DNA of 64,000 bases from Streptomyces nitrosporeus (GCF_008704555.1 NZ_CP023702.1:6610001-6674000); one strand, 5' to 3'; counted from the stretch's first letter, positions 8,381 to 55,959 are shown. The notes: generated by a model not told the origin, from the sequence alone. Made by a program: numbers and translations.

Positions 8381-9205
8381 ATGAAGTTCGCGGTTCTCGG
8401 CCCCCTGTCCCTCACGGACGGAAACGGGTCCCTCCTCCCGACCGCGCCCAAGACGCGTCAGCTGCTGGCCCTTCTGCTGCTCCACGCGAACTCCTTGGTG
8501 ACACTGGAGACCTGCCTCCAGGAACTGTGGGGCGAGTCCTCGCCGCGCAGCGCCGTGCAGAGCGTGCACACCCGGGTCTTCCAGATCCGGCAGGCGCTGG
8601 CCGGCGACCTGTCGGGCCGGACGACGGAGGAGAGCAAGCGCATCCTGAAGACGCATCACCAGGGCTATTCACTGGAGGTGGAAAAAGGGTCCCTCGATCT
8701 GGACGTACTCGAAACACACCTGACGAAGTACCGTCGGGCCCAGTCGCGCCAGGACGATGTCGGAGTTTCCACGGAACTCCGCGCCGCGCTCTCCCTGTGG
8801 CGCGGCCGCACTCTGCTGGACATCCAGCAGGGGGAATGTATACAGGCTTATGCGACGGGCATGGAAGATCTCCGTATGACCGTGCTGGAACAGTGCATCG
8901 AAGCGGAATTACGGCTCGGTATGCACCACCGTCTTCTTTCGGAACTGAGCACGCTCGTTTCCCGGTACCCGGTGCACGAGAACCTCCATGCCCAGTACAT
9001 GATCGCCCTGTACCGGTCGGGCCGTACCGTGGAATCACTCAGGACCTATCACCGGCTCCGCAAGACCCTCACGGAAGAACTCGGAATCGAACCTTCCCAC
9101 CGGGTCAGGCAGTTGCAGACCGCCGTACTGGCGAAGAGCACCGAACTCGACGTGGTGCCGCAGGACAGGGCGGTCCTCTCGATGAGTCTGATGTCGGGCC
9201 GTTGA
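8381..9205 (+). CDS. Small SARP-family transcriptional activator with a TTA codon
   Basis: A 274 aa regulator of the AfsR/DnrI/ActII-4 type. The N-terminal OmpR-like winged helix covers about residues 1-95 (MKFAVLGPLSL, KTRQLLALLLLHAN, QSVHTRVFQIRQAL). The bacterial activation domain follows at about 100-245, ending in YRSGRTVESLRTYHRLRKTLTEELGIEP. There is no NB-ARC or TPR extension. SARPs activate biosynthetic clusters by binding repeats upstream of promoters. Codon 177 is TTA (8909-8911), so translation should depend on the bldA tRNA. It is divergent from the leftward run and leads the rightward run, so it is the likely pathway activator. Confidence 0.93.
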   Translation: MKFAVLGPLSLTDGNGSLLPTAPKTRQLLALLLLHANSLVTLETCLQELWGESSPRSAVQSVHTRVFQIRQALAGDLSGRTTEESKRILKTHHQGYSLEVEKGSLDLDVLETHLTKYRRAQSRQDDVGVSTELRAALSLWRGRTLLDIQQGECIQAYATGMEDLRMTVLEQCIEAELRLGMHHRLLSELSTLVSRYPVHENLHAQYMIALYRSGRTVESLRTYHRLRKTLTEELGIEPSHRVRQLQTAVLAKSTELDVVPQDRAVLSMSLMSGR

Positions 9206-9280
9206 CGGCGCTTCGCACCGGGACCCCTCTTCGCCGCAGGCCTTCGACAGCCGTGGCACCGCCGACCGAGGAGAGCGTAC

Positions 9281-10639: not shown

Positions 10640-10717
10640 GCGGACCCGCGGCACGGCCCGCCCCCCGTACCCCCAGCCCTTCACCCCGTATCCCGAACCC
10701 CTCTCACCAGGAGTGCC

Positions 10718-11950
10718 ATGTCCCGCCGTCTCTTCACCTCGGAGTCTGTCACCGAGGGTCATCCCGACAAGATCGCCGATCAGATCAGCGACACCGTTCT
10801 CGATGCGCTTCTGCGTGAGGATCCTTCTTCGCGTGTGGCGGTCGAGACCCTGATCACTACGGGTCTCGTGCATGTTGCGGGAGAGGTCACGACCAAGGCT
10901 TATGCCGATATTCCCACTCTTGTGCGTAACAAGGTGCTGGAGATCGGTTACGACTCCTCGAAGAAGGGTTTCGACGGGGCTTCGTGTGGTGTTTCGGTGT
11001 CCATCGGGGCGCAGTCGCCGGACATCGCGCAGGGTGTGGACACCGCGTACGAGAAGCGGGTCGAGGGGGATGAGGACGAGCTCGACAAGCAGGGTGCCGG
11101 TGATCAGGGGCTGATGTTCGGGTATGCCTGTGATGAGACGCCGGAGTTGATGCCGTTGCCGATTCATCTGGCGCACCGGTTGTCGCGGCGGTTGTCGGAG
11201 GTGCGTAAGAACGGGACGATTCCGTATCTGCGGCCGGACGGCAAGACGCAGGTGACGATCGAGTACGACGGTGACAAGGCGGTGCGTCTGGACACGGTGG
11301 TGGTGTCTTCGCAGCATGCTTCGGACATCGATCTGGATTCGTTGCTGGCGCCTGACATCCGTGAGTTCGTGGTGGAGCATGTGCTGGGTCAGCTGGTGGG
11401 GGACGGTATCAAGCTGGATACCGAGGGTTACCGGTTGTTGGTGAATCCGACGGGGCGTTTCGAGATCGGTGGGCCGATGGGGGATGCGGGTCTGACCGGG
11501 CGGAAGATCATCATTGACACCTACGGGGGTTATGCCCGTCATGGTGGTGGTGCTTTCTCGGGGAAGGATCCGTCGAAGGTGGACCGTTCGGCGGCGTACG
11601 CGATGCGGTGGGTCGCCAAGAACGTGGTGGCCGCGGGGCTGGCGGCGCGGTGTGAGGTCCAGGTCGCGTATGCGATCGGGAAGGCGGAGCCGGTGGGTCT
11701 GTTCGTGGAGACCTTCGGTACGGCGACGGTGGACACGGAGCGGATCGAGCACGCGATCGGTGAGGTCTTCGATCTGCGTCCGGCGGCGATCATCCGTGAT
11801 CTCGATCTGCTGCGTCCGATCTACGCGCAGACCGCGGCGTACGGTCACTTCGGGCGTGAGCTGCCCGACTTCACGTGGGAACGCACCGACCGCATCGACG
11901 CACTGCGCGCCCTCACAGGGGGTGTGGACCGTGGAGCCGCCGCCGTGTAG
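10718..11950 (+). CDS. metK: S-adenosylmethionine synthetase
   Basis: Makes SAM from methionine and ATP. Full length at 410 aa: [20 protein letters not shown] at the N-terminus, [13 protein letters not shown] (ATP site) and [16 protein letters not shown] are all intact. AGGAG lies seven bases upstream of the ATG. From 10718 to about 11870 the gene is visibly less GC-rich at third positions (GCTTATGCCGATATTCCC and similar) than every neighbour, and it returns to cluster-like codons near its end. This resembles a highly expressed housekeeping gene. A separate housekeeping metK is expected elsewhere, so this is probably a second copy that lifts SAM supply for the pathway's methylations. Confidence 0.97.
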
Positions 11951-12914
11951 GACGCCCGCCGGCCCCCCGCCCCCGGGGAGCGGCGCCCCCTATGCCTTCT
12001 CCTTCGAGTTCTTCCCGGCGAGGACCGAGGCGGGGGAGCGGGCCCTGTGGCAGGCGATCCGCAGGGCCGAGCCGCTGTCGCCCGCGTTCGTGTCGGTCAC
12101 CTACGGGGCGGGCGGCTCCTCCAAGGCCCGCACGGTCGAGGTCGCCCGGCGCATCGCGGCGGAGACGACGCTGCGGCCCGTCGCGCACCTCACCGCGGTC
12201 GGCCACTCGGTGGCCGAACTACGGGGCATCGTCGGCCGGTACGCGGACGCCGGCGTCCGGGACGTCCTGGTGCTCCGCGGGGATCCGCCCGGGAACCCCC
12301 GGGGGGAGTGGACGCCGCACCCGCAGGGCCTGCGACACGCGTACGAACTGGTGGAACTGGTCCGGTCCCTGGGGAACTTCACCATCGGCGTCGCGGCGTT
12401 CCCCGAACGGCACCCGCGGTCGCCCGACTGGGACAGCGACATCCGGCACTTCGTCGCCAAGTGCCGGGCGGGCGCCGACTACGCGATCACGCAGATGTTC
12501 TTCGACGTGGAGGACTACCTGAGGCTGCGTGACCGGGTGACGGCCGCGGGGTGCGACATCCCGCTCATCCCGGAGATCATGCCGGCCACCGGCATCCGCC
12601 AGGCCGCCCGGTTCGCCGAACTCAGCGGCGCCGTGTTCCCCGCCGGTCTCGCGCGCCGCCTGGAGGCGGCCGGGGACGACAGGGACGCCTCGTACCGGAT
12701 CGGCGTGGAGCACGCGACCGCCATGGGCCGCCGCCTGCTGGCCGAAGGCGCGCCGGGACTCCACCACATCACGCTCAACCGCTCCGGCGCGGCCTTCGAC
12801 GTCCACCACGGCGTCCTCGGCGCGGGGGAGGAAACCCTTGTACCGCCCCCCGCGCGAGCGGCGCGTGCCGTGCCCGGACCGCCCTCCGCGGCCACCGGGC
12901 CCCGGCCGTGGTGA
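11931..12914 (+). CDS. metF: Methylenetetrahydrofolate reductase
   Basis: Reduces 5,10-methylene-THF to 5-methyl-THF, the methyl donor for remaking methionine. It has 327 aa with the MetF core: [53 protein letters not shown] and a C-terminal HHITLNRS. The start is placed at GTG 11931 because AGGGGG lies nine bases upstream. This gives a 20-nt overlap with metK and therefore translational coupling; GTG 11922 is possible. About 30 C-terminal residues (Pro/Ala-rich) extend past the fold. With metK and adoK it forms a compact SAM-regeneration set. Confidence 0.93.
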
Positions 12915-37479: not shown

Positions 37480-37872
37480 ATGAGCGAAACCCCCGACCCC
37501 GAGGTGGTCGAGCTGGCGACCAAGGTCTTCGACCTGGCCCGCCGCGGTGAGGCGGACGCCCTGGCCGCCTATGTCGACGCGGGCCTCCCGGCGAACCTCA
37601 CCAACGACCGGGGCGACACCCTGATCATGCTCGCCGCCTACCACGGCCACGCACCGGCCGTCGCCGCCCTCGCCGCCCGCGGGGCGGACCCGGACCGGGC
37701 CAACGACCGGGGCCAGACCCCGCTCGCCGGCGCCGTCTTCAAGGGGGAGCGCGCGGTGATCGAGGCGCTGCTGGCGGCGGGGGCCGATCCGGCCGCCGGA
37801 ACACCCTCCGCCGAGGACACCGCGCGCATGTTCGGCAAGGACGACCTGCTGGAACTCTTCGGTGCGCGCTGA
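37480..37872 (+). CDS. Ankyrin-repeat protein
   Basis: A 130 aa protein made of about three ankyrin repeats: the first around EADALAAYVDAGLPANLTNDRGDTLIMLAAYHGHAPAVAALAARGADPD, then RANDRGQTPLAGAVFKGERAVIEALLAAGADPAAG, then a half repeat ending in LFGAR. It is a protein-protein interaction module without a catalytic domain or signal peptide. ATG 37480 with GGAAGG upstream. Short stand-alone ankyrin proteins are common in Streptomyces; the partner is unknown. Confidence 0.9.
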   Translation: MSETPDPEVVELATKVFDLARRGEADALAAYVDAGLPANLTNDRGDTLIMLAAYHGHAPAVAALAARGADPDRANDRGQTPLAGAVFKGERAVIEALLAAGADPAAGTPSAEDTARMFGKDDLLELFGAR

Positions 37873-37990
37873 GGCGCCCACCGGGCGGGCGGTGGACCGG
37901 TGTGCCGTAAATGTGGTCGCGTCGGCGAAATGGCTGGGCCATCATGACGTCGCGGGTCCGCTCAGGACCACCGACGAGAGGCAGAGGAAG

Positions 37991-38044
37991 ATGAGCACCA
38001 GGCTAAAGACGGCGGCCGGCCGGTCATGTTGTCGCGCGGCCTAG
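37991..38044 (+). CDS. Possible 17-codon leader peptide with tandem Cys codons
   Basis: ATG 37991 follows AGAGGAAG at good spacing and reads MSTRLKTAAGRSCCRAA before a TAG. It ends 63 bases before the HEAT-repeat gene. Two adjacent TGT codons and one rare CTA codon in such a short, GC-rich-organism frame recall attenuation leader peptides. Chance cannot be excluded. Confidence 0.35.
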   Translation: MSTRLKTAAGRSCCRAA

Positions 38045-38107
38045 TCCCCCCGGTACGTGAACAGCACGGTCCCGGTCGCGTCGACAGCTTGATGTGAGGC
38101 TTTCCCC

Positions 38108-39526
38108 ATGTTCGATCCGTTCATAGCGCCGAGCGGCACTCTGCTCGGTCTGCTGCAGAGGGGCCGCGGCGACGGCACACTCCACGCACTCGCAGCACCC
38201 CGTACCGAGGCCCTCGCGGCCCTCAACCACTGCGTCCTGAGCGACCCGCGCCACGACTGGCAGGTCGAGAACCGCTCCCTCTACTACGCCCGCCTGTACA
38301 TCGATCTCGACGGCGGCACCGAGGAGATCGAGCGGCACCTGTGGGACGCCGAGGACCGCCTCGACACCGACGAGTCGCGCACGGGCCTCGCGCTCTCGGT
38401 CCTGGGCCACCTCGCCTCGTACGGGCGTGACGACGCCCTCACGCTGCTGCGGCGCTACGCCGCGACCGGCACCAACTGGGCCTGGGCCCTCGACGAGCTG
38501 GCGCTGCGCGACGACGACGCCGGGCTGCGCTCACTCGCCGGGCCCGTGCTCGCCCGGTTCCCCGCCACCCCGCAGGGCGCGGCCGAGCTGGCCGCCGCCG
38601 TGCGGGACGCCTTCGAGCCCCGGCCCTGGCGGCTCTGGGCCGACGACCCGCGCGAAGCGGTCGGCGCCCGGGTGCGCGCCGCCGGCGAGCAGGGCTCCTT
38701 CGACCGGTGGCAGCGGCAGATGCGGCCCGCCGGGCCCCGGCCCGGCTGGAGCGTCCAGGCGGTGTTCGACTGGGCCCAGCAGGGACTCGAACGCGGCAGC
38801 GTGCTGCATGTGCCCGCCGCCCGCTGCCTGTCGGCCGTCGCCGGCACCGAGGACCGGCCGCGGATCGTCGAGGCGGCCCGGAGCGGCCCGGACGGCGCCC
38901 GCTGCGCCGCCCTGCACTACCTGGCCGAAGCCCGGGACCCCGTCGTGCTGGACCTGATCGAACAGGCCGCCGCGGACCCGTCCCCCACCGTGGCGGAAGC
39001 CGCCGTGGCGGCCTTCGAGCGCATGTGCGACGAGACGGCGGTCGACCGTGCGCGCCGGTGGGCCCGCCGGCCGGACGCCCTCGGCGTCTCGGCGGCAGGT
39101 GTGCTGGCCTGCCGGGGCACGGCCCAGGACGCCCCGCTCGTCCTCGCGGCCCTGCGCGAGGCCGTCCGGGGCGACGGCCCCGACGGCCGGAGCCTGTGGA
39201 CCCTGGTCGACGGGGCGGGCCGCCTCGGCATCGCCTGCGCCGCACCGGTGCTGCGCCACGTCTACCGCGAGACCTCCTCCTCCCATCTGCGCGGCCGGAC
39301 CGCCCGCGCGCTGGCCGCGACCGACCCCTCCTTCGCCACCGGCTTCGCCGTCGAGTGCCTCTGGGACTGCGAGGAGACCACCCGGGAGCTGGCCGCGCTC
39401 CACGCCGAGACCGGCGACATCCGGGTCGCCGAACGCCTGCGCAGGCTCGCCGCCGACCCGGCCGAGGAGGCCGAGGTGCAGACCGCGGTACGCAGCCGCA
39501 TCGGCCCGGACGCGCAGACCGGCTGA
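38108..39526 (+). CDS. HEAT-repeat (PBS-lyase-like) protein
   Basis: A 472 aa all-helical protein. Repeated units such as EALAALNHCVLSDPRHDW, GRDDALTLLRRYAATGTNWAWALDELALRDDDAGLRSL, DPVVLDLIEQAAADPSPTVAEAAVAAFERM and LRGRTARALAATDPSFATGFAVECLWDCEE are HEAT-like. Such proteins are scaffolds. No signal peptide or catalytic motif was seen. ATG 38108 has a poor SD (GAGGC 13 bases upstream). A 17-codon ORF with a better SD lies just upstream. Confidence 0.82.
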   Translation: MFDPFIAPSGTLLGLLQRGRGDGTLHALAAPRTEALAALNHCVLSDPRHDWQVENRSLYYARLYIDLDGGTEEIERHLWDAEDRLDTDESRTGLALSVLGHLASYGRDDALTLLRRYAATGTNWAWALDELALRDDDAGLRSLAGPVLARFPATPQGAAELAAAVRDAFEPRPWRLWADDPREAVGARVRAAGEQGSFDRWQRQMRPAGPRPGWSVQAVFDWAQQGLERGSVLHVPAARCLSAVAGTEDRPRIVEAARSGPDGARCAALHYLAEARDPVVLDLIEQAAADPSPTVAEAAVAAFERMCDETAVDRARRWARRPDALGVSAAGVLACRGTAQDAPLVLAALREAVRGDGPDGRSLWTLVDGAGRLGIACAAPVLRHVYRETSSSHLRGRTARALAATDPSFATGFAVECLWDCEETTRELAALHAETGDIRVAERLRRLAADPAEEAEVQTAVRSRIGPDAQTG

Positions 39527-39685
39527 GGGAGCCGGGAGCCGGGGCGCGGGACGGCTGAGGAGCCGGACGTGCGGGGCCGGTCCCCGCGCAGCGCCCCCGG
39601 GCGGTGGCCCGCCGCCCGGGAACGCCCCGCCGGTCCCGCTCCCCGGCCCGCTGCGGACGGGGGACGGCCGCGCGAGAATGGGGGG

Positions 39686-43303
<3,618 letters not shown>

Positions 43304-43395
43304 CGCACGGGCGCGCCGGAGCGGCCGGGGAGGGCGCCGCGTGCCCGCCGGGCGGCCGGTTCTGCGCCGTTTCGACCGTTGTCGGTGCGAGGACC

Positions 43396-43411
43396 TAATC
43401 TGTGCAGCGTG
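43396..43411 (+). promoter_or_regulatory. -10 element suggesting a leaderless start of the SMC operon
   Basis: TAATCT at 43396-43401 ends seven bases before the GTG start at 43409, with no SD between them. This spacing is that of leaderless mRNAs, which are common in Streptomyces. A weak -35 (TTCGAC) lies 19 bases upstream. Confidence 0.45.
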
Positions 43412-44935
43412 ACTTCGCCTGCCGACACCCACACCGCTGCGCCGCAGCTCAGCGCGGGGCCGCGGCCCGCCCCGGGCCCCGCCGCCGACGAGGGGCTCTC
43501 GCGTCGGCTGCGCGCGCTCGCCTGCACCGCCCCGCTGCACGACCTCGACGCACGCAAGGCGAACCTGGCCGGCGAGTACACGGTCTACGCGATGGCGGAG
43601 GTCGCCCTCGCCGCGATCGACCTGGTCACCCTCAACATGGACTTCGACACGGGCGCGGACCACGACCAGATAGTGGCCAGACTCCTCCCCAGGGTCGGCG
43701 CCCAGGCCCCCGGCCGCCCCGCCACCGAACACGAGCGGGTCGCCCGCTGGGTCCTGGAGAACCTGATCAACGTCGGCAGCGTGGACCGGGGCTTCCGCGC
43801 GGTGTACGGCACCTTCGGCCCGGACGGCGTGTACGTCCGCCGGGACTACGACTTCAAACTCGTCGAGGAGGTACCGGGCCCCGACGGCGCCGTCTACCTC
43901 CGGGCCACCGACGAAGCGGTCAACGTCCTGGTCGGCGCCCTGGACACCGATGTCACCAGCGCGCAGATCGCCGCCGAGGTGAAACTGGAGGTCCTCATCA
44001 GCCGGGGCCGCCTCGCCGACGCCCAGCTCGCCGCCGAACAGGCCCGCTACCGCACCGTGCAGTACGCGGAGACCCTCCGCCGGACCCTGGAGGCGACCCG
44101 GCGCAACGTCCGCGCCGTCGACTGGCTCAACGCCGTCCCCGACATGATCGCCGAAGCCCTCGACCACGTCGCCGACCGCTACCGCCACGAGAACGCCATC
44201 CTCACCAACATCCGCAAGGCCAGGGACGAGGCCGAGGACCCCGAGCACAAACGGCGCGCCGCCGAGCTCGTCGACATCGTCAAGGACTGCATCCGCCGCC
44301 ACACCCAGCTCCAGTCCCGGCTGCTGGAGGCCGGGCCGCTCTTCCGCGCCGAACAGGACCGGCAGGCCTTCGCCGCCCCCGCCTCCCGCCTGGGACTCGA
44401 CCTCTACGGCCAGCTCGTCGCCCCCCTGCTGCCGCTCCCCGTCGAAGAGGCGTCCCGGGTCACCGACGCCTTTTTCACCCACGGCACCGGACTGCGCACC
44501 CCGGTCTCCGTCCGCGTCGGCGACCTCGTCGACCTGCTGCTCACCCCGCCCGTCGAACGGGAGCACCTCGGCGCGGAGATGCCCGAACCCGACCTCGTGG
44601 CCACCCCCGACGACAGCCGGTTCAGCGAGGAGCAGCTCGCGCACGCCCTGGACCTGCTCGACCTGGAGCACGACGCCCCCCGCCGGCTCTCCGGCCTGCT
44701 GGCCGAGGCCCGGCTCCACGACCCCGACCTGCCCTATCTGGTCGCCCTGCTCGCCGTCCACGCGGCGAGCCCCCCGGTCGGCACCGCCTACCGCCAGGGA
44801 GAACGCAGACTGCTCTTCGCGGTCGACGACGGAATCCCGCTGGAGGACCCGGAGTTCGGCGGGGCCGACCTGATAGTGGGCACCGCCCTGCTGGACGCCG
44901 CGGGCATGGCCGCGGACCGCAAGGACGCCTCGTGA
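43409..44935 (+). CDS. Kleisin-like subunit of an SMC complex (JetA/MksF-like)
   Basis: A 508 aa protein, first of three genes. An N-terminal helical/winged-helix part (about 25-180; GFRAVYGTFGPDGVYVRRDYDFKLVEEV, YLRATDEAVNVLVGAL) is followed by a long helical middle (about 185-320; ISRGRLADAQLAAEQARYRTVQYAETLRRTLEATRRNVRAVDW to ELVDIVKDCIRRHTQLQSRLLEAGPLF) and a C-terminal winged-helix-like end. This is the organisation of MukF/MksF/JetA kleisins, which bridge the heads of an SMC dimer. The call rests on this layout and on the SMC-like gene downstream. GTG 43409 appears leaderless. Confidence 0.68.
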   Translation: MTSPADTHTAAPQLSAGPRPAPGPAADEGLSRRLRALACTAPLHDLDARKANLAGEYTVYAMAEVALAAIDLVTLNMDFDTGADHDQIVARLLPRVGAQAPGRPATEHERVARWVLENLINVGSVDRGFRAVYGTFGPDGVYVRRDYDFKLVEEVPGPDGAVYLRATDEAVNVLVGALDTDVTSAQIAAEVKLEVLISRGRLADAQLAAEQARYRTVQYAETLRRTLEATRRNVRAVDWLNAVPDMIAEALDHVADRYRHENAILTNIRKARDEAEDPEHKRRAAELVDIVKDCIRRHTQLQSRLLEAGPLFRAEQDRQAFAAPASRLGLDLYGQLVAPLLPLPVEEASRVTDAFFTHGTGLRTPVSVRVGDLVDLLLTPPVEREHLGAEMPEPDLVATPDDSRFSEEQLAHALDLLDLEHDAPRRLSGLLAEARLHDPDLPYLVALLAVHAASPPVGTAYRQGERRLLFAVDDGIPLEDPEFGGADLIVGTALLDAAGMAADRKDAS

Positions 44936-45002
44936 GCGTCCGCCCGGCCGGCCCCCGCCTCCGCCCCACGAGCGCAGCCACCCGTACCGAGGAGCCCCCG
45001 CA

Positions 45003-45914
45003 GTGACCGAGCAGTACGCCGAACCCGCCGACGCGTGGGCGGACCCGCAGCCCGGGTACACGGCGGACCCCGCCCCGGCGGCGGCCCCCGCCGGGGCCAC
45101 CCCCGCCGACGCGGCCGACGCGGCCCGGCTCGTCTCCTTCGGACTCCAGCCCAGACTGGTGCCCGCCCGGGACGCCGAATACGCCGAACTGCTGCGCCGC
45201 TACCGCGAGGAACCGGCGTTCGCCCGGCTCGCCGACGCCGTCGCCACCGGACTCGGACTCGTCGTCCTGGAGGTCTCCGCCCGCGCCGGTATGGCGGTGA
45301 CCGCCGCGGAGGACTCCGTGTTCGCCGTACGCATGGGCGACTACGCCCGGCGCGCCTCCTCCGACACCGCCGACCGCTTCCTGCACGGACTGGCCCACCT
45401 CGCCGTCGCCGCCATGGCCTTCCCCCGGCCCGAGGACCTCGCCGACGACGCCTACATCGGGCGGATCACGGTCAACGGCGTCGACGCCTTCGTCCGCCAG
45501 GCGTGCCGCCGACTGGAGGAGCGCGCCGAACAGCGGGGCGACAACACCGACCCCGCCTCCGACGCCCCGGGGCTGGAGTCGGGCTGGCGCGTCTACGCCC
45601 GCCGCAGCGCCACCGGAGCCACCAAGGACGCCCGGCGGCTCGCGGGGTCGACCACCGGCATCATCGGCAAGGCCGTCGCCTTCCTCGGCGACTCCGGCTT
45701 CCTCCAGCGCACCGGCGACGACGCGGGCGGCACCTACCGCACCACCGCCCGCTACCAGCTCCAGGTACGCGACATGGCCGGCGGCGCCGCGATGGCCGAG
45801 CTCCTGGAACTCGGTGTCGTACCGGTCACCGACGGGTCGGCCACGCTCCTGCCCCCGCCCGACGCCGACGGCCTGGAGCTCGCCCCCGACGCGGGCCTGC
45901 CCTTCCACTCCTGA
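45003..45914 (+). CDS. KITE-like subunit of an SMC complex (JetB/MksE-like)
   Basis: A 303 aa protein. The first 40 residues are low-complexity; the rest forms tandem winged-helix-like segments: YAELLRRYREEPAFARLADAVATGLGLVVLEV, DDAYIGRITVNGVDAFVRQACRRLEERAE and IIGKAVAFLGDSGFLQRT...YRTTARYQLQVRDMA. Size, order and position between a kleisin-like and an SMC-like gene match MukE/MksE/JetB proteins, which bind the kleisin. GTG 45003 with GAGGAG eight bases upstream, 67 bases after the previous gene. Confidence 0.66.
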   Translation: MTEQYAEPADAWADPQPGYTADPAPAAAPAGATPADAADAARLVSFGLQPRLVPARDAEYAELLRRYREEPAFARLADAVATGLGLVVLEVSARAGMAVTAAEDSVFAVRMGDYARRASSDTADRFLHGLAHLAVAAMAFPRPEDLADDAYIGRITVNGVDAFVRQACRRLEERAEQRGDNTDPASDAPGLESGWRVYARRSATGATKDARRLAGSTTGIIGKAVAFLGDSGFLQRTGDDAGGTYRTTARYQLQVRDMAGGAAMAELLELGVVPVTDGSATLLPPPDADGLELAPDAGLPFHS

Positions 45915-45978
45915 CCCCGCCCGCACTCCCGTGCGGCCGCCGCCCCCCCCGCCACCTGAACGACGAGAGTCCGCCGCC

Positions 45979-48900
45979 ATGTACGAGTTGTCCCGGGTCC
46001 GCCTCTACTCCATCGGACCCGCCGGTGCGCGCTACGCCGACACCGTGCTCGACCTGCGCGGAGTAGGGGAGCCCGTGCCCCACCCCGCCCCGGCCCAGGC
46101 GGAGTTCTTCGAGGAGGAGCCGGTCGGGCCCCCGCGCCGCCCGGCACCCGCGGGAGTGCTCTTCCTGGAGAACGGCGGCGGCAAATCCGTCCTCCTCAAG
46201 CTGATCTTCTCGGTGATGCTGCCCGGGCACCGCAACACCCTGGGCGGCGCCAGCTCCGGCGTACTGCGCAAGTTCCTGCTGGCCGACGACTGCGGGCACG
46301 TCGCCCTGGAATGGCAGCACACACTCACCGGCGAATGCGTCGTCGTCGGCAAGGTCAGCGAATGGCGCGGCCGGCAGGTCTCCAATGACCCGCGCAAGTT
46401 CGCCGAGGCCTGGTACTCCTTCCGCCCCGGCCCCGGGCTCAGCCTCGACAGCCTGCCCGTCGCCGAGGCCACCTCGGTGGGCCGCCCTGCCGAGGGCGCC
46501 TCCGGGGCGCGGGGCCGGCGGCGCACCATGAAGGGCTTCCGCGACGCCCTCATGGACGCAGGCAAGTTCTACCAGCACCTCGACGTGCACTGGGAAGAGA
46601 TCCACGACCGGTGGAACGAGCACCTCGGCGACCTCGGCCTCGACCCCGAACTCTTCCGCTACCAGCGTGAGATGAACGCGGACGAGGGCGAGGCGGCCGG
46701 CCTCTTCGCCGTCAAGAAGGACTCCGACTTCACCGACCTGCTGCTGCGGGCGGTCACCGACACCCGCGACACGGACGGCCTCGCCGACCTGGTCAGCGGC
46801 TTCGGCAACAAACTCGGCCGCCGCGCCGAACTCACCGCCGAACGCGACTTCACCGCCGGATCCGTCGACCTGCTGGGCCGGATCGTCGAAGCCACCGGGG
46901 CCCGGGCCCGCAGCCGCGACATCCACGCCGCGGCCGAGCGGCGCACCCGCACCCTCGCCCGCGGACTGTCCGCCCGCGCCGCCGGGGAACGCGCCCGCAC
47001 CGCGGAACTCGCCGGGCAGGTCACCTCCGCCGCCCGCACCGTCACCGAGGCCGAGAGCACCCGCGGGCACCGCGACCTGATCGCCGCCGAACTCGCCTAC
47101 CGGCACGCCTCGCTGGCCCTCGCCGCCGCGGAGAAGGGCGCGGCGGCCCAGCGCCGTGAACTGGGCGACGCCCGCACCCTGCACGCCGCCTGGCAGGCCG
47201 CCGAGGCGGTCCTGCGCCACCGCGCGGCCGCCGACCGCTCGGCCAGGGTCGCCGTGGCCATCCGCGAGGCCGAACGCGACGCCGCCCCCGCCCTCGCCGC
47301 CCGTGCCACCGCCGCCGCCGATCTCGTACGCGCCCTGCACACCGCCGCCGAGGAAGGCGAGCGGGTCGCCGACGAGGAGGAGGAGCGCTCCGCGGTCCTC
47401 CAGGCCACCGGCGAGGCCGCCCACCGCGACGCCACCACCGCGGCCACCGAGGCCCAGCGCGCACGCAGCGAGGCCGGGCACCTCCGCCAGCGCCTCGTGG
47501 AGGTCGAACAGGAGACCGCGGAAGCCGTGCGGGCGGGCTGGCTCGACGACACCGCCCCCGACGCCGACCCGGCCCGCGCGGCCCTCGCCGCCAACGACGC
47601 GGAGAAGGCCGCCGTCGCGGCCTGGGACACCGCACGGGAGGCGGCCAGGAGCACCGCCGACCACGCCCGCGAGGCGGCGGCGGCCGAAAGCCGGGCCGAA
47701 CTCGCCGCCGCCCGGGCCGCCGACCGCGCCCAGAGCGCCGAGCGGTCGTACGAGGCGGAGCGCGGCGCCGCCGCGTCGATCGCCTCCGACCCGCGCCTCG
47801 CCGAACTCCTGGGACTGCCCGGGGCCGCCGGGGTGCCCCGCCCCCGGCGCACCGCCGGCCCGGACGCACCCGGCCCGGCCGACGGCGCGCCGGCGCTCAC
47901 CGCCGAGGAACTCGACACCGGAGCCGAGGAGGTGCGCGAACTGCTGGAGACGGGCATCGCCGCCGCCGAGCGCAGGCTCTTCGACATGCGTACCGCCGCC
48001 GCCGACGACTCCCGCATCCTCGGCGCCCTCGGCGACGGCGGACTGCTGCCCCCGGGCCCCGACGTCCTGGCCACCGTCGAGTACCTCGGCGAACACGGCA
48101 TCCCCGCACTGCCCGGCTGGCGCTACCTCGCCCAGTCCGTCGACCCCCTGGACCACGCGGCCGTGCTCGCCGCCCGCCCGGAACTCGTCGACGGGGTCGT
48201 CATCACCGACCCGGACGCGCACACCAGGGCCCGCGAGGTGCTCGGCTCCGCCGCCCTGCTGCCCCGCTCCGCCGTGGCCGTCGGTACCGCCGCGGCGCTC
48301 CTGGCGCCCGTACCCGCCGGGGGCGGTCCGGCCGCGGACGGCGTCTTCCTGGTACCGCCGAACCCCGCCATGCACGACGAGCACGCAGCCGACGAGGAAC
48401 GCCAGGCCCTGCGGGCGAGGGCCGCCGCACGGGACGAGGACATCCGCGCGCTCGCCGCGCGGCTCGGGGCCGACCGCGCCCTGGCCGCCAGGATCGGCTC
48501 CTGGCGGGCCGACTGCCCGCCGGGCATGCTCACCGAACTCCGGGAGGCCGCCGCCGCCGCACGCACCGCCGCCGAGACCGCGGAGACCCGTCTCGCGGAG
48601 GCCCGCACCGTCCGGGCCGAGGCGGACGAGGCGGCGGCGGAGGCCGCCCGCGTCCGCGACGAGAGGCAGGAGGCGGCCCAGCGCGCCCGCCGGGCCGCCG
48701 ACGCGCTGGCCGGGCTCGCGCACCGGCTGCGCGACCGGGCGGCCTGGCAGGCCAGGCTGCGGGAACTCACCGACGAGGCGGCCGAGTCCGAGGCCCGTGC
48801 CGCCGCCTGCCTCGACCGGGCCCGCGCCGCCGACGAGGACCGCAGGGCGGCCCAGCGCGCGGCGGACGACGCCCATCGCACCTCCCGCGCCCTGCGCGCC

Positions 48901-50769
48901 GAACGCGCCGAGATCGCCGGTGCCCCGGAAACACCGCCCGACCCCGTGCCCGGTGGCGCACGCGTCTCGCTGCCCGCCCTGCGCGAGGCATACCGGGCGG
49001 CCTCCCAGCTGTACGAGAAGGTCGGTGTCGGCGCGGACCTGCGGGCCGAGCAGGCCCGGGCGGAGAGCGACGAGAGCGCCGCCCTCGCCGAACTCGACCG
49101 CCTCACCAACAAGGTGCGCACCCGCGCCGCCCAGCTCCTGGAGGGCACCGACGGCGCCGACGGACCTTCCCGGCAGGCCGCGGCGGCCCGCGCGGAGTCC
49201 CTCGTACAGCTCCTGGAGACCCGGGCCTCCTCGGCCAGCGAGCAGCTGGGGCGGCTGCGCGGTGAAGCGGAACGCCTCGCACCGGCCGACGGCGAGGCCC
49301 GGCACACCGAACTCCCCGGGGACCTCGTCCCCGCCGACGCGGAACAGGCGCAGGCCCTGCTGCGGACCGCGACCGCCGAACTGGCCGCGGCCACCGCCGC
49401 CCTGGAGACGGCACGCGCCGTCCACACCGAGCTGCTCCGCGCCCACCGCACCGCGGAGGACTCCGCGAGCGGCTTCGACGAGATGGCGGCCCTCCTGCGC
49501 GACCTGCTGCGGGAGGCCGCGTCCGACGAGGCGCCGGAGGAGGACGCCCCCTACCCGGGCACGCTGGAGGAGGCGAGGCGGTCCGCGGCCGAGGCCCGCC
49601 GCTCGCTGCGCGGCTGCTCGGCGGACCTCTCGGCGGCCGAGGGCTCGGTGCGGGAGGCGAGCGACGTGCTCGTACGGCACGCCAACTCCACCCGCTACGA
49701 GCAGGTCCGCACCCCGGCCCGGCAGCAGATCCGTGAACTCCCCGCCTCCGCCCTGCCCGACCACGCGGAGAAGTGGGCCGCGGCCTTCGCGCCCCGGCTG
49801 CGCGTACTCACCGACGAGCTGGCCCAGCTGGAACGCAACCGCGACTCCATCGTGGACCGGCTGCGCGGGCTGGTGGAGTCCGCGCTCACCACCCTGCGCT
49901 CCGCCCAGCGCCTCTCCCGGCTCCCCGAAGGGCTGGGGGAGTGGTCGGGCCAGGAGTTCCTCCGGATCCGTTTCGAGGAACCCGACCAGGCCACCCTCAC
50001 CGAGCGGCTCGGCGAGGTCGTCGACGAGGCCACCCACGCGGCCCTCAGGAAGAACTCCGACCTCCGCAGGGACGGCATGTCCCTCCTGCTGCGCGGTGTC
50101 CAGGCGGCGCTCCGGCCCAAGGGCATCGCCGTGGAGATCCTCAAGCCCGACGCGGTGCTCCGCGCCGAGCGGGTCCCGGTGGGACAGATGGGCGACGTCT
50201 TCTCCGGGGGGCAGCTCCTCACCGCCGCCATCGCCCTGTACTGCACCATGGCGGCCCTGCGGAGCAACGACCGGGGCCACGACCGGCACCGCCACGCCGG
50301 GACCCTGTTCCTGGACAACCCCATCGGCCGCGCGAACGCCACGTACCTGCTGGAACTCCAGCGCGCGGTCTCCGACGCACTCGGGGTCCAGCTGCTGTAC
50401 ACGACCGGTCTCTTCGACACCACGGCCCTCGCCGAGTTCCCCCTGGTCATCAGGTTGAGGAACGACGCGGACCTGCGGGCCGGGCTGAAGTACATCAGCG
50501 TGGAGGAGCACCTGAGGCCGGGGCTCCCGCAGCAGGACCCGCAGGGCGAGACGGTGCATGGTGAGATCACCGCGACCCGGATGTTCAAGCGGGCCGCGCC
50601 GTCCGAGGAAGCAGCGGGCGGGCCGGCGGTCCCGAGGACACGCGCGGAGACCACCCCCCGGCCCCCGGCGGACCGGCCGAAGCCCGCGGATCAGCCGAAG
50701 CCTGCGGATCAGCCGGACCTGGCGGGACAGCCGGACCTGGCGGACCTGGCGGACCGGCCGGACCGCTGA
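45979..50769 (+). CDS. MukB/JetC-like SMC ATPase
   Basis: A 1596 aa protein with the SMC plan. The N-terminal head has Walker A ENGGGKS at 64-70. A long Ala/Glu/Arg-rich coiled coil runs from about 300 to 600, a globular hinge spans about 600-810, and a second coiled coil extends to about 1385. The C-terminal head has the ABC signature SGGQ at 1409-1412 and Walker B TLFLDNPIG, where Asp1446 is followed by Asn instead of the usual Glu. A tail of PADQP-type repeats ends it. It should extrude or clamp DNA with the two preceding gene products. The 64-base spacing argues for one operon. No JetD/MksG nuclease gene is adjacent. Confidence 0.8.
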   Translation: MYELSRVRLYSIGPAGARYADTVLDLRGVGEPVPHPAPAQAEFFEEEPVGPPRRPAPAGVLFLENGGGKSVLLKLIFSVMLPGHRNTLGGASSGVLRKFLLADDCGHVALEWQHTLTGECVVVGKVSEWRGRQVSNDPRKFAEAWYSFRPGPGLSLDSLPVAEATSVGRPAEGASGARGRRRTMKGFRDALMDAGKFYQHLDVHWEEIHDRWNEHLGDLGLDPELFRYQREMNADEGEAAGLFAVKKDSDFTDLLLRAVTDTRDTDGLADLVSGFGNKLGRRAELTAERDFTAGSVDLLGRIVEATGARARSRDIHAAAERRTRTLARGLSARAAGERARTAELAGQVTSAARTVTEAESTRGHRDLIAAELAYRHASLALAAAEKGAAAQRRELGDARTLHAAWQAAEAVLRHRAAADRSARVAVAIREAERDAAPALAARATAAADLVRALHTAAEEGERVADEEEERSAVLQATGEAAHRDATTAATEAQRARSEAGHLRQRLVEVEQETAEAVRAGWLDDTAPDADPARAALAANDAEKAAVAAWDTAREAARSTADHAREAAAAESRAELAAARAADRAQSAERSYEAERGAAASIASDPRLAELLGLPGAAGVPRPRRTAGPDAPGPADGAPALTAEELDTGAEEVRELLETGIAAAERRLFDMRTAAADDSRILGALGDGGLLPPGPDVLATVEYLGEHGIPALPGWRYLAQSVDPLDHAAVLAARPELVDGVVITDPDAHTRAREVLGSAALLPRSAVAVGTAAALLAPVPAGGGPAADGVFLVPPNPAMHDEHAADEERQALRARAAARDEDIRALAARLGADRALAARIGSWRADCPPGMLTELREAAAAARTAAETAETRLAEARTVRAEADEAAAEAARVRDERQEAAQRARRAADALAGLAHRLRDRAAWQARLRELTDEAAESEARAAACLDRARAADEDRRAAQRAADDAHRTSRALRAERAEIAGAPETPPDPVPGGARVSLPALREAYRAASQLYEKVGVGADLRAEQARAESDESAALAELDRLTNKVRTRAAQLLEGTDGADGPSRQAAAARAESLVQLLETRASSASEQLGRLRGEAERLAPADGEARHTELPGDLVPADAEQAQALLRTATAELAAATAALETARAVHTELLRAHRTAEDSASGFDEMAALLRDLLREAASDEAPEEDAPYPGTLEEARRSAAEARRSLRGCSADLSAAEGSVREASDVLVRHANSTRYEQVRTPARQQIRELPASALPDHAEKWAAAFAPRLRVLTDELAQLERNRDSIVDRLRGLVESALTTLRSAQRLSRLPEGLGEWSGQEFLRIRFEEPDQATLTERLGEVVDEATHAALRKNSDLRRDGMSLLLRGVQAALRPKGIAVEILKPDAVLRAERVPVGQMGDVFSGGQLLTAAIALYCTMAALRSNDRGHDRHRHAGTLFLDNPIGRANATYLLELQRAVSDALGVQLLYTTGLFDTTALAEFPLVIRLRNDADLRAGLKYISVEEHLRPGLPQQDPQGETVHGEITATRMFKRAAPSEEAAGGPAVPRTRAETTPRPPADRPKPADQPKPADQPDLAGQPDLADLADRPDR

Positions 50770-50838: not shown

Positions 50839-51294
50839 TCAGGCCCGGGAGAGGCCGCCGGCGCCCCGGCGGCGTATTCGGGAGTCACGCCGGGCCTGCG
50901 CCTTCGCGGCCGCCCGCGCCCTGCGCCGCTCACGCCGCATCCGGCGCGCCGTGCTGCTCGGCACCGACACCACACCGTGGCGCTGGTTCCACACCTGGCG
51001 GGTCACCCAGACGTCCAGCACCGACCAGGTGGCGACCACCGTGCTCGCCACGCCGCTGAGGATCATCGGGAACGCCAGCCACGACCCCGCCAGGGTGCAC
51101 AGGAAGGCCACCACGGCCTGGATCAGCGTCAACGACATGATCAGGACGGCCCGCACGGCCGCGGCGCGTACCGGGTCGGGCATCCGTCTGCGTATCGCGG
51201 GCTCCTCCACCCACAGCTGCTGCCGGGGCACCGCGGCGCCGCCCGCCGGCCCCGCTCCCGGCACCGGCGTCCCCCGGCGTCCATCCGTCACCAC
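50839..51294 (-). CDS. Two-helix membrane protein of unknown function
   Basis: A 151 aa protein. A cytoplasm-like N-terminus rich in Pro/Gly is followed by two hydrophobic segments (VRAVLIMSLTLIQAVVAFLCTLAG and LAFPMILSGVASTVVATWSVLDVWV) and a very basic C-terminus (ARRMRRERRRARAAAKAQARRDSRIRRR), which could bind nucleic acid or membrane. GTG start near 51294. Convergent with the SMC-like gene and divergent from the conservon. No family recognised. Confidence 0.75.
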   Translation of the reverse strand: MVTDGRRGTPVPGAGPAGGAAVPRQQLWVEEPAIRRRMPDPVRAAAVRAVLIMSLTLIQAVVAFLCTLAGSWLAFPMILSGVASTVVATWSVLDVWVTRQVWNQRHGVVSVPSSTARRMRRERRRARAAAKAQARRDSRIRRRGAGGLSRA

Positions 51295-51768: not shown

Positions 51769-54498
51769 ATGCGCTTTCGCGGGAAGTCCATCCGCCGGAA
51801 GATCGTGGCGTTGCTCCTCGTGCCGCTCGTCTCTCTCACGGCCCTCTGGGTCTTCGCCACCTACGTCACAGGCCGGGAGGCCCGCGCCCTGATCGGCGCC
51901 GGTTCCGTCGTGGAGAACATCGGCCACCCGCTTGAAGACACCGTCCGCGCCGTCCAGGACGAACGCCGCCAGACCCTCGTCTTCCTCGCCGACCCCCGCG
52001 CCTCCGACGCCCTGCCGGTCCTCCTGCGGCAACGTGCCGCCACCGACCGGGTCGTGGCCGGTGTCCGCCGCAGCGCCGGGCGCGACGACGTCCGCGACGC
52101 CCTGAGCCCGGACGCCGAGGCCCGGCTCGACTCGATCCTCGGCAAGGTCGACGGACTGGACGCGCTGCGGTCCTCCGTCGAGCGGCGCACCATCGACCGG
52201 ACCAGGGCGCTGGAGTTCTACAACGGCCTGATCGACCCGTGCTACCGCTTCCTGAACGGGCTCCACACCATGGAGAACGTCTCGATGGACAAGCAGGTCA
52301 GGGCGCTGGTCGGCGTGTCCCGGGCCCGCGAGATGCTGTCCCGTCAGGACGCGCTCATCGCCTCCGGCCTGATCGCCGGACGGCTCGGGGCGCCCGAACT
52401 GCGTGCCGTGTCCGACCTCGCGGCGAGCCGCGAGCTCCTCTACGAGGTCAACCTCGAACTGCTCCCGGCCTCCGAACGGGCCCGCATGGAACAGTACTGG
52501 TCCGGCCCCGGCACCGAGCCCCTGCGCACCGCCGAGCAGAAGCTCATCGCCGCCGGGCCGTTCGAGCGGCCGGGGGCCGTCGACGCCGCACGGTGGCAGC
52601 AGGTGGCGCCGCCGGTGCTGGACCACCTGGCCGACGACAGCACCGAGATGGCCAACCGCTTCCAGGACCGTGCCGAGCCCGCGGGCTACCGCGTCCTCAT
52701 CCGGGCCGGGGTGGCCGGTGTCCTCGGATTCGTGGCCCTGGTCGTCTCGGTCTTCGTCTCCGTCCGTGTGGGACGCGCGCTCGTGCGCGATCTCTCCCGG
52801 CTCCGCAAGGACGCCCACGAGGTGTCCGGCGTACGGCTGCCGAGCGTGATGCGGCGCCTCGCCGCGGGCGAGCAGATCGACGTGGAGACCGAGGCCCCGC
52901 ACCTCGACTACGACAAGGACGAGGTCGGCCAGGTCGGCCAGGCGCTCAACACCCTCCAGCGGGCCGCCGTCGAGGCCGCCGTCAGACAGGCCGACATGCG
53001 CCGCGGCGTGTCCGAGGTGTTCGTCAACCTGGCCCGCCGCAACCAGGTGCTGCTGCACCGCCAGCTGACGCTCCTGGACGCCATGGAGCGGCGTACCGAG
53101 GACAGCGACGAACTCGCCGACCTGTTCCGCCTCGACCACCTCACCACCCGCATGCGCCGCCACGCCGAAGGGCTGGTCATCCTCTCCGGGGCGGCCCCCT
53201 CCCGGCAGTGGCGCAAGCCCGTCCAGCTGATGGACGTGGTGCGCGCGGCGGTCGCCGAGGTGGAGGACTACGAACGCATCGAGGTCAGGCGGCTGCCCCG
53301 GATAGGCGTCGGCGGGCCCGCGGTCGCCGACCTGACCCATCTGATCGCCGAACTCCTGGAGAACGCCACCGTGTTCTCGCCCCCGCACACCGCGGTCCAG
53401 GTGCACGGTGAACGCGTGTCCAACGGCTTCACCCTCGAGATCCACGACCGGGGCCTCGGTATGACCCCCGAGGTCCTGCTGGACGCCAACCTCCGGCTCG
53501 CCGAGACCCCGGACTTCGAACTCTCCGACACCGACCGGCTCGGCCTCTTCGTGGTCAGCCGGCTCGCACAGCGGCAGAACGTACGGGTCTCGCTGCAGAC
53601 CTCACCGTACGGGGGGACCACCGCGGTCGTCTTCATCCCGGCGCAGCTGCTCACCGACGCCCCCGACACCCACGGAACGGGCTTCCGCCTCGACCGCAGG
53701 GCCGAGAAGGCCGTCGGGGGCCAGGACACGGGCGGCACCGGAGCGAAGTCCTCCGGAACGGCCGGACCGGGACCGGGCCTCGTACCGGTACCCGCCGGCC
53801 TCGCCCCGCTGGACGGGCCGGTCGAGCTCGAAGGGCCGGTCGAGGCACGGGAACTCGCCGCGGACCCGGCGCTCGACCGCGCCCTCGACCCGGCGCTGGG
53901 ACCGGTCCTCGACGGCGTGTCCGACCTGGAGGACACCGAGAGCGAGCGCGGCGGCATCTTCCGCGCCCGTGGACTGCGCCGCGACGCCGAGCGCGAACAG
54001 CACCAGCAGGCAGCCGACCAGCCGGAGGGGCACACCGCGGAGGTCCGGCCGATGCGGCCCGCCGGACCCGTCCCGCTGCCCCGGCGCAAACCGGCGGGCC
54101 AGGCCGCCCGGACCCGCCGGATCCCCGAGACGGGCCGCGCCCGCCCCGCGCCCGCCGGCCGGACCCCCGGACTCCACGCCGACGGCCCGGCCGGGGACCG
54201 CCGGACACCGGCGGCCCCCGCGCCCGGCACCGCCGCACCCGGCACCATCGGCGGACTGCCCCGCAGGATCCGCCAGGCCAGCATCGCCCCACAGCTCCGG
54301 GAGGACGCCGCAGGGCGGACCACCGGCCAGGCCCCCGCACACACCGTCGATGACTTCGAACGTGACGCGGACGAAGTACGCAACCGCATGGCCTCGCTCC
54401 AACGCGGCTGGCAGCGCGGCCGTCGGCAGAACGCCGAGGACGCGACCGGCCCCGGCGAGACCGCACCAGGAACCACTCCGGGAGGGGACGGTCGATGA
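51769..54498 (+). CDS. cvnA: Conservon sensor kinase-like protein CvnA
   Basis: A 909 aa membrane protein. TM1 (about 12-32), an extracellular nitrate/nitrite-sensing-like helical domain (about 35-300), TM2 (RAGVAGVLGFVALVVSVFVSVRVG, about 310-335) and HAMP come first. The kinase core has LFRLDHLTTRMRRHAEGLVILSG and the N-box HLIAELLENATVFSPPHT with HDRGLGMTP of a histidine kinase ATPase. The last 230 residues are Pro/Arg-rich and disordered. ATG 51769 with GGGGGAGG. It overlaps cvnB as ATGA. Conservons (CvnA-D) form a membrane-bound, GPCR-like signalling complex in Streptomyces that affects development and antibiotic production. Confidence 0.93.
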   Translation: MRFRGKSIRRKIVALLLVPLVSLTALWVFATYVTGREARALIGAGSVVENIGHPLEDTVRAVQDERRQTLVFLADPRASDALPVLLRQRAATDRVVAGVRRSAGRDDVRDALSPDAEARLDSILGKVDGLDALRSSVERRTIDRTRALEFYNGLIDPCYRFLNGLHTMENVSMDKQVRALVGVSRAREMLSRQDALIASGLIAGRLGAPELRAVSDLAASRELLYEVNLELLPASERARMEQYWSGPGTEPLRTAEQKLIAAGPFERPGAVDAARWQQVAPPVLDHLADDSTEMANRFQDRAEPAGYRVLIRAGVAGVLGFVALVVSVFVSVRVGRALVRDLSRLRKDAHEVSGVRLPSVMRRLAAGEQIDVETEAPHLDYDKDEVGQVGQALNTLQRAAVEAAVRQADMRRGVSEVFVNLARRNQVLLHRQLTLLDAMERRTEDSDELADLFRLDHLTTRMRRHAEGLVILSGAAPSRQWRKPVQLMDVVRAAVAEVEDYERIEVRRLPRIGVGGPAVADLTHLIAELLENATVFSPPHTAVQVHGERVSNGFTLEIHDRGLGMTPEVLLDANLRLAETPDFELSDTDRLGLFVVSRLAQRQNVRVSLQTSPYGGTTAVVFIPAQLLTDAPDTHGTGFRLDRRAEKAVGGQDTGGTGAKSSGTAGPGPGLVPVPAGLAPLDGPVELEGPVEARELAADPALDRALDPALGPVLDGVSDLEDTESERGGIFRARGLRRDAEREQHQQAADQPEGHTAEVRPMRPAGPVPLPRRKPAGQAARTRRIPETGRARPAPAGRTPGLHADGPAGDRRTPAAPAPGTAAPGTIGGLPRRIRQASIAPQLREDAAGRTTGQAPAHTVDDFERDADEVRNRMASLQRGWQRGRRQNAEDATGPGETAPGTTPGGDGR

Positions 54499-54938
54499 CC
54501 GCACCGAACGCCACAGCAACCGACACCGCACGCCAGGACTCCGGCCGGCTCAACTGGCTCCTCGACGAACTGGTCGAGCGCGTCTCCAGCATCCGCAAGG
54601 CGCTGGTGCTCTCCAGCGACGGCCTGGCCACCGGCGCGTCCCGGGACCTGGCCCGTGAGGACAGCGAACACCTGGCCGCCGTCGCCTCCGGGTTCCACAG
54701 CCTCGCCAAGGGCGTGGGGCGCCACTTCGACGCGGGCCGGGTCCGCCAGACCGTGGTCGAACTCGACGAGGCGTTCCTCTTCGTCACCGCGGCGGGCGAC
54801 GGCAGCTGCCTCGCCGTCCTCGCCGACGCCGACTCGGACGTCGGACAGGTGGCGTACGAGATGACCCTGATGGTCAAGCGGGTGGGGGCCCATCTCGCCA
54901 ACAGCCCCCGGACGACCGGTATGCCCGCCGGAGGGTGA
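54495..54938 (+). CDS. cvnB: Conservon Roadblock/LC7 protein CvnB
   Basis: A 147 aa Roadblock/LC7-fold protein: LNWLLDELVERVSSIRKALVLSSDGLATGASRDLAREDSEHLAAVASGFHSLAKGVGRHFDAGRVRQTVVELDEAFLFVTAAGDGSCLAVLA. In conservons it interacts with the GTPase CvnD and the kinase-like CvnA. ATG 54495 overlaps the cvnA stop (ATGA), so it is translationally coupled. Confidence 0.95.
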   Translation: MTAPNATATDTARQDSGRLNWLLDELVERVSSIRKALVLSSDGLATGASRDLAREDSEHLAAVASGFHSLAKGVGRHFDAGRVRQTVVELDEAFLFVTAAGDGSCLAVLADADSDVGQVAYEMTLMVKRVGAHLANSPRTTGMPAGG

Positions 54939-54947
54939 GGGGATGGG

Positions 54948-55373
54948 ATGAGCGCCGACTCCGTCCGGAAGACCCCCGCAGCGACCGGCACCCCGGCCGG
55001 CTCCCGCTGGTACGACGCCGAAGCGGGACCGGTGGTACGCCCCTACGCCATGACCAGGGGACGCACCGGCAGCGCCTCCCGCCACCGTCTCGACCTGATC
55101 GCGATCGTCGTCCCCGAACCCGAGGCCGACGATCCCGGCCGGGACCGGACGCTCTCCCCGGAACACGTGGAGATCGTCGAACTGTGCAGCGACATGCCCC
55201 AGTCGATCGCCGAGCTCGCCTCCGGACTGGACCTCCCCGTGGGGGTGGTCCGCGTCCTGGTCGGTGACCTCGTCGAGGAACAGCTGGTGCACGTCACCCG
55301 TCCCGTTCCGCCGGCCGAACTGCCGGACGTGAACATTCTCCGCGAGGTGATCAATGGCCTTCGGGCGCTCTAG
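54948..55373 (+). CDS. cvnC: Conservon DUF742 protein CvnC
   Basis: A 141 aa DUF742 protein with RWYDAEAGPVVRPYAMTRGRT, then SPEHVEIVELCSDMPQSIAELASGLDLPVGVVRVLVGDLVEEQLVHVTRP (a winged-helix-like part) and the typical terminal LPDVNILREVINGLRAL. It is part of the CvnA-D complex. It overlaps the start of cvnD by 20 nt and lies 9 nt after cvnB. Confidence 0.95.
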   Translation: MSADSVRKTPAATGTPAGSRWYDAEAGPVVRPYAMTRGRTGSASRHRLDLIAIVVPEPEADDPGRDRTLSPEHVEIVELCSDMPQSIAELASGLDLPVGVVRVLVGDLVEEQLVHVTRPVPPAELPDVNILREVINGLRAL

Positions 55374-55959
55374 CCGCAAGAAGCGGCCCGTGGAGCCCGT
55401 CACCCTGAAGATCCTGGTGGCGGGCGGCTTCGGGGTGGGCAAGACGACCCTGGTCGGCGCGGTCAGCGAGATCCGCCCCCTGCGGACGGAGGAGAGGCTG
55501 AGCGAGGCCGGGCGCCCCGTCGACGACGTCGCCGGCGTCGAAGGGAAGAACACCACCACGGTGGCCATGGACTTCGGCCGGATCACCCTGCGCGAGGACC
55601 TGGTGCTCTACCTGTTCGGGACCCCCGGGCAGGACCGGTTCTGGTTCCTCTGGGACGAACTGGCCCAAGGAGCCCTGGGCGCGGTCGTCCTCGCCGACAC
55701 CCGGCGGCTGGAGGACTGCTTCGCCGCCGTCGACTACTTCGAGCGGCGCGCCATCCCGTTCACCGTGGCCGTCAACCTCTTCGAGGGCGCGGCGCGGTTC
55801 CCCGTCGAGACGGTACGGGCGGCGCTCGACCTCGACCCGGGTGTACCGGTGCTCATGTGCGACGCACGTGACCGCGCCTCCGTACGCGATGTGCTGGTGG
55901 CGGTCGTGGAACACGCCCTGGCACGCGCGGACGCCCCCAGGGAACCCGTCGGGACCTGA
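55354..55959 (+). CDS. cvnD: Conservon small GTPase CvnD
   Basis: A 201 aa Ras-like GTPase. The P-loop GGFGVGKTT is at about residues 24-32, the switch I Thr lies in the VEGKNTTTVAMDFGRI segment, and GTPGQDRFW forms G3. The G4 NKxD is degenerate (AVNLFEG), as usual in CvnD. ATG 55354 overlaps cvnC. The cytochrome P450 gene (CvnE) that ends some conservons is absent: the next gene is convergent and unrelated. Confidence 0.94.
   Translation: MAFGRSSRKKRPVEPVTLKILVAGGFGVGKTTLVGAVSEIRPLRTEERLSEAGRPVDDVAGVEGKNTTTVAMDFGRITLREDLVLYLFGTPGQDRFWFLWDELAQGALGAVVLADTRRLEDCFAAVDYFERRAIPFTVAVNLFEGAARFPVETVRAALDLDPGVPVLMCDARDRASVRDVLVAVVEHALARADAPREPVGT

Follow-up and report, generated by a model that had tools for sequence, protein, structure and literature searches.

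The MksBEF complex of Pseudomonas aeruginosa, which probably arose from a JetABCD (Wadjet) system by loss of the nuclease JetD, aids chromosome organisation and segregation (PMC10586767). It consists of SMC, kleisin and KITE subunits without a nuclease and is used alongside SMC-ScpAB, whereas MukBEF of E. coli and its relatives replaces SMC-ScpAB. Within the Actinomycetota, SMC-kleisin-KITE operons are known as MksBEFG or EptABCD from Corynebacterium and Mycobacterium, and MksBEFG of Corynebacterium is a type I Wadjet that includes the nuclease MksG/JetD and targets plasmids (PMC10123090). Here we describe a jet operon of Streptomyces nitrosporeus that encodes JetA, JetB and JetC of type III Wadjet descent, without JetD. 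It lies in a 64,000-nt stretch (NZ_CP023702.1:6610001-6674000), called the window, in which operon positions are counted. The operon spans 43409-50769, with three co-directional genes in the order jetA-jetB-jetC that are separated by gaps of 67 bp (jetA-jetB) and 64 bp (jetB-jetC). We consider it probable that the complex is a second, damage-responsive cellular condensin, made from the JetABC motor of a Wadjet III system without its nuclease. The operon and its promoter have the following features.

43379-43401, plus strand: predicted DNA-damage promoter of RecA-NDp type, TTGTCGGTG-CGAGGACC-TAATCT, an exact match to the consensus that ends 7 nt before the GTG of jetA
43409-44935, plus strand: jetA, kleisin subunit (JetA3/MukF-like), 508 aa, GTG start, assigned by PADLOC profile and AlphaFold (AF2) fold
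45003-45914, plus strand: jetB, KITE subunit, 303 aa, assigned by AF2 fold, without a sequence-family match
45979-50769, plus strand: jetC, SMC ATPase subunit (JetC3), 1596 aa, assigned by PADLOC profile and ATPase motifs

The gene trio had been proposed from a sequence-only reading of the window, and gene calls, PADLOC profiles and predicted folds all bear it out. JetA matches the PADLOC model JetA3 (PDLC00567) with 626 bits and JetC the model JetC3 (PDLC00588) with 1400 bits. JetB has no match in PADLOC, Pfam or NCBIfam; it is homologous to the JetB of JetD-bearing operons. Because a profile search with each of the three subunits against the sequences of solved structures returned nothing beyond chance coiled-coil matches, we turned to fold comparison, using AF2 models with a predicted local distance difference test (pLDDT) score of 75 for JetA and 74 for JetB. 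Among solved structures, MukF chains come out on top for JetA, with a Foldseek E of 6.3e-4 and, for residues 181-321, a VIA-align Z of up to 13.7 (root-mean-square deviation 2.6 across 141 residues); unrelated helical proteins follow closely at Z 12. For JetB, the top matches are MukE and the Wadjet JetB proteins of P. aeruginosa and E. coli (Z 7.4-8.1 over about 170 residues). These scores are modest yet consistent across both subunits, and the models point to JetA as a kleisin and JetB as a KITE protein. The same comparison, set up beforehand as a possible refutation of the sequence-only reading, thus left the first two proteins within the kleisin (MukF) and KITE (MukE/JetB) folds. The ATPase motifs of JetC are intact (Walker A ENGGGKS, signature FSGGQ, Walker B LFLDNP), as they are in JetD-bearing relatives. 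The Mks/MukB label that had also been attached to the operon holds for the fold and for the likely function; it does not hold for the sequence, since the jet subunits have no detectable similarity to solved MukBEF chains and their closest relatives are type III JetABC proteins.

The absence of JetD, likewise part of the sequence-only reading, was borne out at every scale examined. No JetD adjoins the operon, and neither Pfam JetD_C nor PADLOC JetD3 finds a match in the complete S. nitrosporeus genome (7.58 Mb). When the window and 83 further loci of the same kind (core loci) were searched with JetD queries, the matches were scattered, with a best E of 0.04 and no consistent place. A divergent JetD or JetD remnant beside the operon was therefore rejected, as only chance matches were found over the 84 core loci. 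The JetD3 search is evidently sensitive enough, because this model recovers JetD beside related operons elsewhere, including one (L101) that JetD_C alone misses. With the defining nuclease tested for and absent, the core complex is not a member of the Wadjet systems.

In other respects the operon resembles Wadjet III closely: JetA, JetB and JetC each have a homologue there, the gene order is the same, the JetA3 and JetC3 scores are high, and JetD-bearing relatives occur in the same genus. The two kinds of copy differ, however, in how they are distributed. JetA was found in 241 of 247 Streptomyces genomes, or 238 of the 240 good ones, and both good genomes without it have more than 1000 contigs. 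Of 118 good Streptomycetaceae genomes, 117 have JetC, and none of the 17 genera sampled lacks it. In an order-level sample, 12 of 15 genomes from outside the family had no match. Fifteen loci from 14 Streptomycetaceae genera other than Streptomyces contain JetABC without JetD, with JetA of the same clade, and none of the 80 core loci from named Streptomyces has JetD. Full-length or near full-length JetD3, on the other hand, is rare: some 20 of the 247 Streptomyces genomes have it, as do some 10 of 121 across the Streptomycetaceae, which is under 10% in each case. Where the locus was read, the JetD gene adjoins a further JetABC copy; conversely, all complete second jet copies examined in Streptomyces have JetD. 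The genes of these JetD-linked copies mostly overlap, whereas those of the core operon are separated by gaps. One genome (G193) holds both kinds, a JetABCD set (L104) in a lower-GC region with transposase-like fragments and a JetD-less core operon (L105) that adjoins a conservon. The core copies thus belong to the vertically inherited core genome, and the JetD-bearing copies to a patchy accessory one. The suggestion of an unrecorded Wadjet subtype did not survive this comparison: the operon is instead a JetD-less branch of type III, with accessory JetD-bearing relatives in the same genus.

Some accessory copies are irregular. In L157 (genome G603, 8648-10426) JetD is preceded by a mere JetC fragment; it looks like an accessory Wadjet in decay, and the core operon of the genome is intact. 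In L101 (genome G386, 9749-11959) the N-terminal part of JetA is fused in frame to the C-terminal part of JetC, followed by JetD, probably owing to an internal deletion or an assembly artefact. Type I Wadjets have JetD contacted by the N-terminus of JetB. Core JetB proteins carry a Pro/Ala-rich N-terminal extension of about 25-40 residues (window 45003-45100), which most JetD-linked JetB proteins lack. A copy proposed for S. coelicolor at SCO1631-1634 proved wrong or unsupported, SCO1632 and SCO1633 being tatC and tatA, and we claim no locus tag in that species.

Maximum-likelihood analysis places core JetA in one clade, with support 100/100 for Streptomyces and 97/100 when the other genera are included, nested among JetD-bearing lineages. 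The JetB tree agrees, with core JetB in one clade (support 99/96). Because the core forms a single clade within JetD-bearing lineages, one JetD loss in or before the Streptomycetaceae ancestor, followed by vertical descent, is the simplest account; the tree does contain some long branches, and the branching order that it gives for the JetD-bearing lineages closest to the core is tentative. The JetA lineage most similar to the core (58% identity) is L164 in genome G651, whose JetC continues on another contig and is followed by JetD.

The core genes are under purifying selection. Protein identity across the genus is 81-95%, and coding frames are conserved far above chance. Among closely related pairs, the median ratio of nonsynonymous to synonymous substitution rates (dN/dS) is 0.07 for JetA, 0.07 for JetB and 0.13 for JetC, about half the values for JetD-linked copies (0.14, 0.15 and 0.27, respectively), so that the core evolves more slowly. 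The median GC of jetC is 0.76 in core copies, which is native, versus 0.68 in JetD-linked ones. Across 44 assemblies, mostly of a single contig and with rounded lengths, the median distance between the core operon and a chromosome end is 16% of chromosome length, and in 41 of the 44 the operon is oriented away from the chromosome centre. Low dN/dS, native GC and consistent position argue that the core genes are kept for use. That the operon is a functionless, decaying remnant of a defence system, as the loss of the effector gene might suggest, is barely conceivable given these ratios, complete reading frames in 75 of 80 core loci (the remaining five end at contig ends), intact ATPase motifs and a conserved promoter; we regard this idea as refuted by the evidence for selection.

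The distribution of the core operon also bears on the question of defence. JetABC could still serve against plasmids or phages if it detects small DNA circles that are then cut by another nuclease, one encoded away from the operon. In Wadjet, JetABC is indeed the shape sensor and JetD the executor (PMC10586767); Streptomyces Wadjets have been reported to be enriched toward chromosome ends (PMC10482375), with the core operon itself about 16% from an end, and the JetD-linked relatives within the genus are defence-like. We nevertheless consider this unlikely, since the S. nitrosporeus genome encodes no JetD-family protein, the comparison of neighbours across core loci revealed no conserved nuclease gene adjoining the operon, and the near-universal, vertical and slowly evolving distribution is unlike that of a defence system.

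The promoter gives a further indication of function. The sequence upstream of jetA matches exactly a LexA-independent DNA-damage consensus, RecA-NDp (tTGTCRgtg-8 nt-TannnT; PMC5656591); in mycobacteria, promoters of this type are served by PafBC (PMC6789036, PMC8223512). A PafC homologue is encoded in the S. nitrosporeus genome. The site before jetA is the sole match in the window, even with one mismatch allowed (0.03 expected). Genome-wide there are 15 exact sites versus none for the reversed pattern, and exact sites precede recA, dnaX, uvrB, ung, and ruvC followed by ruvA (ruvC and ruvA were named by sequence inspection). In eight further Streptomyces genomes, exact sites number 10-40 per genome, and those of the control 0-1. 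Judged by these counts, a RecA-NDp/PafBC-type motif is clearly present in Streptomyces, and the LexA-independent damage-type promoter of jetA is a new observation. An ordinary sigma-70 promoter with -35 and -10 elements was rejected, as the 11-nt gap between TTGTCR and TAnnnT is too short. Because the promoter ends 7 nt before the GTG, the jetA transcript may be leaderless.

A relaxed form of the motif (TGTCR-N11-TAnnnT) precedes jetA in 100 of 103 core loci, compared with 0.9% of random 200-mers, although the loci are related by descent and the 100 conserved promoters are not 100 independent events. Spacers of 9, 10, 12 or 13 between TGTCR and TAnnnT gave no match at core jetA loci. In the other genera, 12 of 15 loci have the relaxed promoter with exact spacing despite a diverged spacer. 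The relaxed form is also found before 9 of 26 JetD-linked or outgroup jetA genes, six of these with the exact form, and the promoter may for this reason be older than the JetD loss. The exact damage-type promoter lies upstream of jetA in the JetD-bearing Wadjet III operons L104, L147, L150, L163, L164 and L167, so some true Wadjets may be regulated by DNA damage.

If the motif were fortuitous or a constitutive element, the operon might encode a condensin-like complex for normal growth or sporulation. Two observations would suit this idea, the presence of the strict motif in only a quarter of core loci and the signalling operon, a conservon, that is co-conserved downstream. It is distinctly unlikely, however, in view of the exact motif spacing that other genera keep despite diverged spacers, and of the motif that jetA has in common with recA, uvrB, ruvC, dnaX and ung in the same genome.

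Together, these data suggest a model in which a Wadjet III JetABC lost its JetD nuclease in the ancestor of the Streptomycetaceae and was retained as a cellular SMC complex. The kleisin JetA would bridge JetC dimers, JetB would hold them, and ATP hydrolysis would drive the extrusion of DNA loops on the chromosome; JetABC would then work as an SMC loop extruder without a cutter, and the intact motor parts lead us to expect ATP-driven extrusion. As the complex has no nuclease, DNA would not be cleaved, but compacted, aligned or tethered instead. DNA damage would probably raise jet expression through the LexA-independent RecA-NDp (PafBC-type) promoter, and because of this expected rise the likely job of the complex is to hold or organise chromosome segments in repair, replication restart or segregation. 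A damage-responsive second condensin is the best reading because of the family-wide conservation, the damage-type promoter and the single canonical SMC in the S. nitrosporeus genome. The cellular role that the sequence-only reading had favoured is strengthened by the family-wide core genome, one ancient JetD loss, purifying selection, native GC and the promoter. A broader proposal is that every member of the Streptomycetaceae has the complex among its core machinery, and that it is damage-inducible and works on the linear chromosomes of these bacteria when DNA is repaired or replication is under stress; we put this at slightly short of an even chance.

An intact motor without a nuclease could also restrain invading or extrachromosomal circles without cutting them, by compaction or silencing. 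Smc5/6, which has been proposed to restrain viral episomes, provides a model, and a damage-type promoter could respond to incoming single-stranded DNA. Genome-wide conservation and position fit a chromosomal role better, and we think such restraint quite unlikely.

Several observations weigh against a damage-responsive cellular condensin. The strict TTGTCRGTG is present in only 26 of 103 core loci, many carrying TTGTCAGAC, and 3 of the 15 loci from other genera lack even the relaxed promoter form. Because JetD-linked copies sometimes share the promoter, damage control does not by itself mark a cellular role. Others, after an initial search in S. venezuelae, reported the mycobacterial PafBC motif as not found and not conserved there (PMC9380542), a negative that, as our genome counts suggest, deserves a second look. 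A nuclease unlike JetD may act in trans. Finally, the organisation of Streptomyces chromosomes has been described by SMC alone (PMC13121528), and any effect of JetABC may therefore be mild or conditional.

The flanking genes are those that the sequence-only reading had named, an oxoprolinase and a small putative membrane protein.

39677-43303: oxoprolinase, upstream flank
50839-51231, minus strand: small putative membrane protein, convergent with jetC, no Pfam match

Of 83 core loci, 74 have the small protein next to jetC (median identity 78%); it is probably a conserved neighbour, not a JetABC subunit. As a substitute effector it was rejected, being convergent, without a domain and without support despite its conserved adjacency. 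Downstream of the jet operon lies a conservon operon at 51769-55959 (NIT/HAMP sensor kinase, Roadblock, DUF742, GTPase), which adjoins the jet operon in many, not all, Streptomyces loci. Ankyrin-repeat and HEAT-repeat proteins encoded upstream (37480-39526) are present in a minority of related loci only. ARAGORN calls of tRNA-Arg and tRNA-Pro within jetC (48885-48962 and 49325-49410, minus strand) are probably false positives in high-GC coding DNA.

Among described systems, MukBEF provides the best matches to the predicted JetA and JetB folds; however, in the S. nitrosporeus genome the complex coexists with a canonical SMC. Core jetABC is a conserved, vertically inherited chromosomal set that forms a single clade, as expected of an MksBEF-like condensin, and the cellular function proposed here is by analogy with MksBEF. 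Since the Streptomycetaceae complex derives from type III Wadjet, its JetD loss looks like a separate one. We found no description of the JetD-less complex in the open-access literature (subscription papers and preprints lay outside the search). If our reading is right, a near-universal second SMC complex has been overlooked in the organisation or repair of linear Streptomyces chromosomes. An anti-plasmid SMC system would also have been domesticated through loss of its nuclease in a further, apparently separate instance besides MksBEF of P. aeruginosa, and JetD-bearing relatives in the same genus allow a comparison with the domesticated complex.

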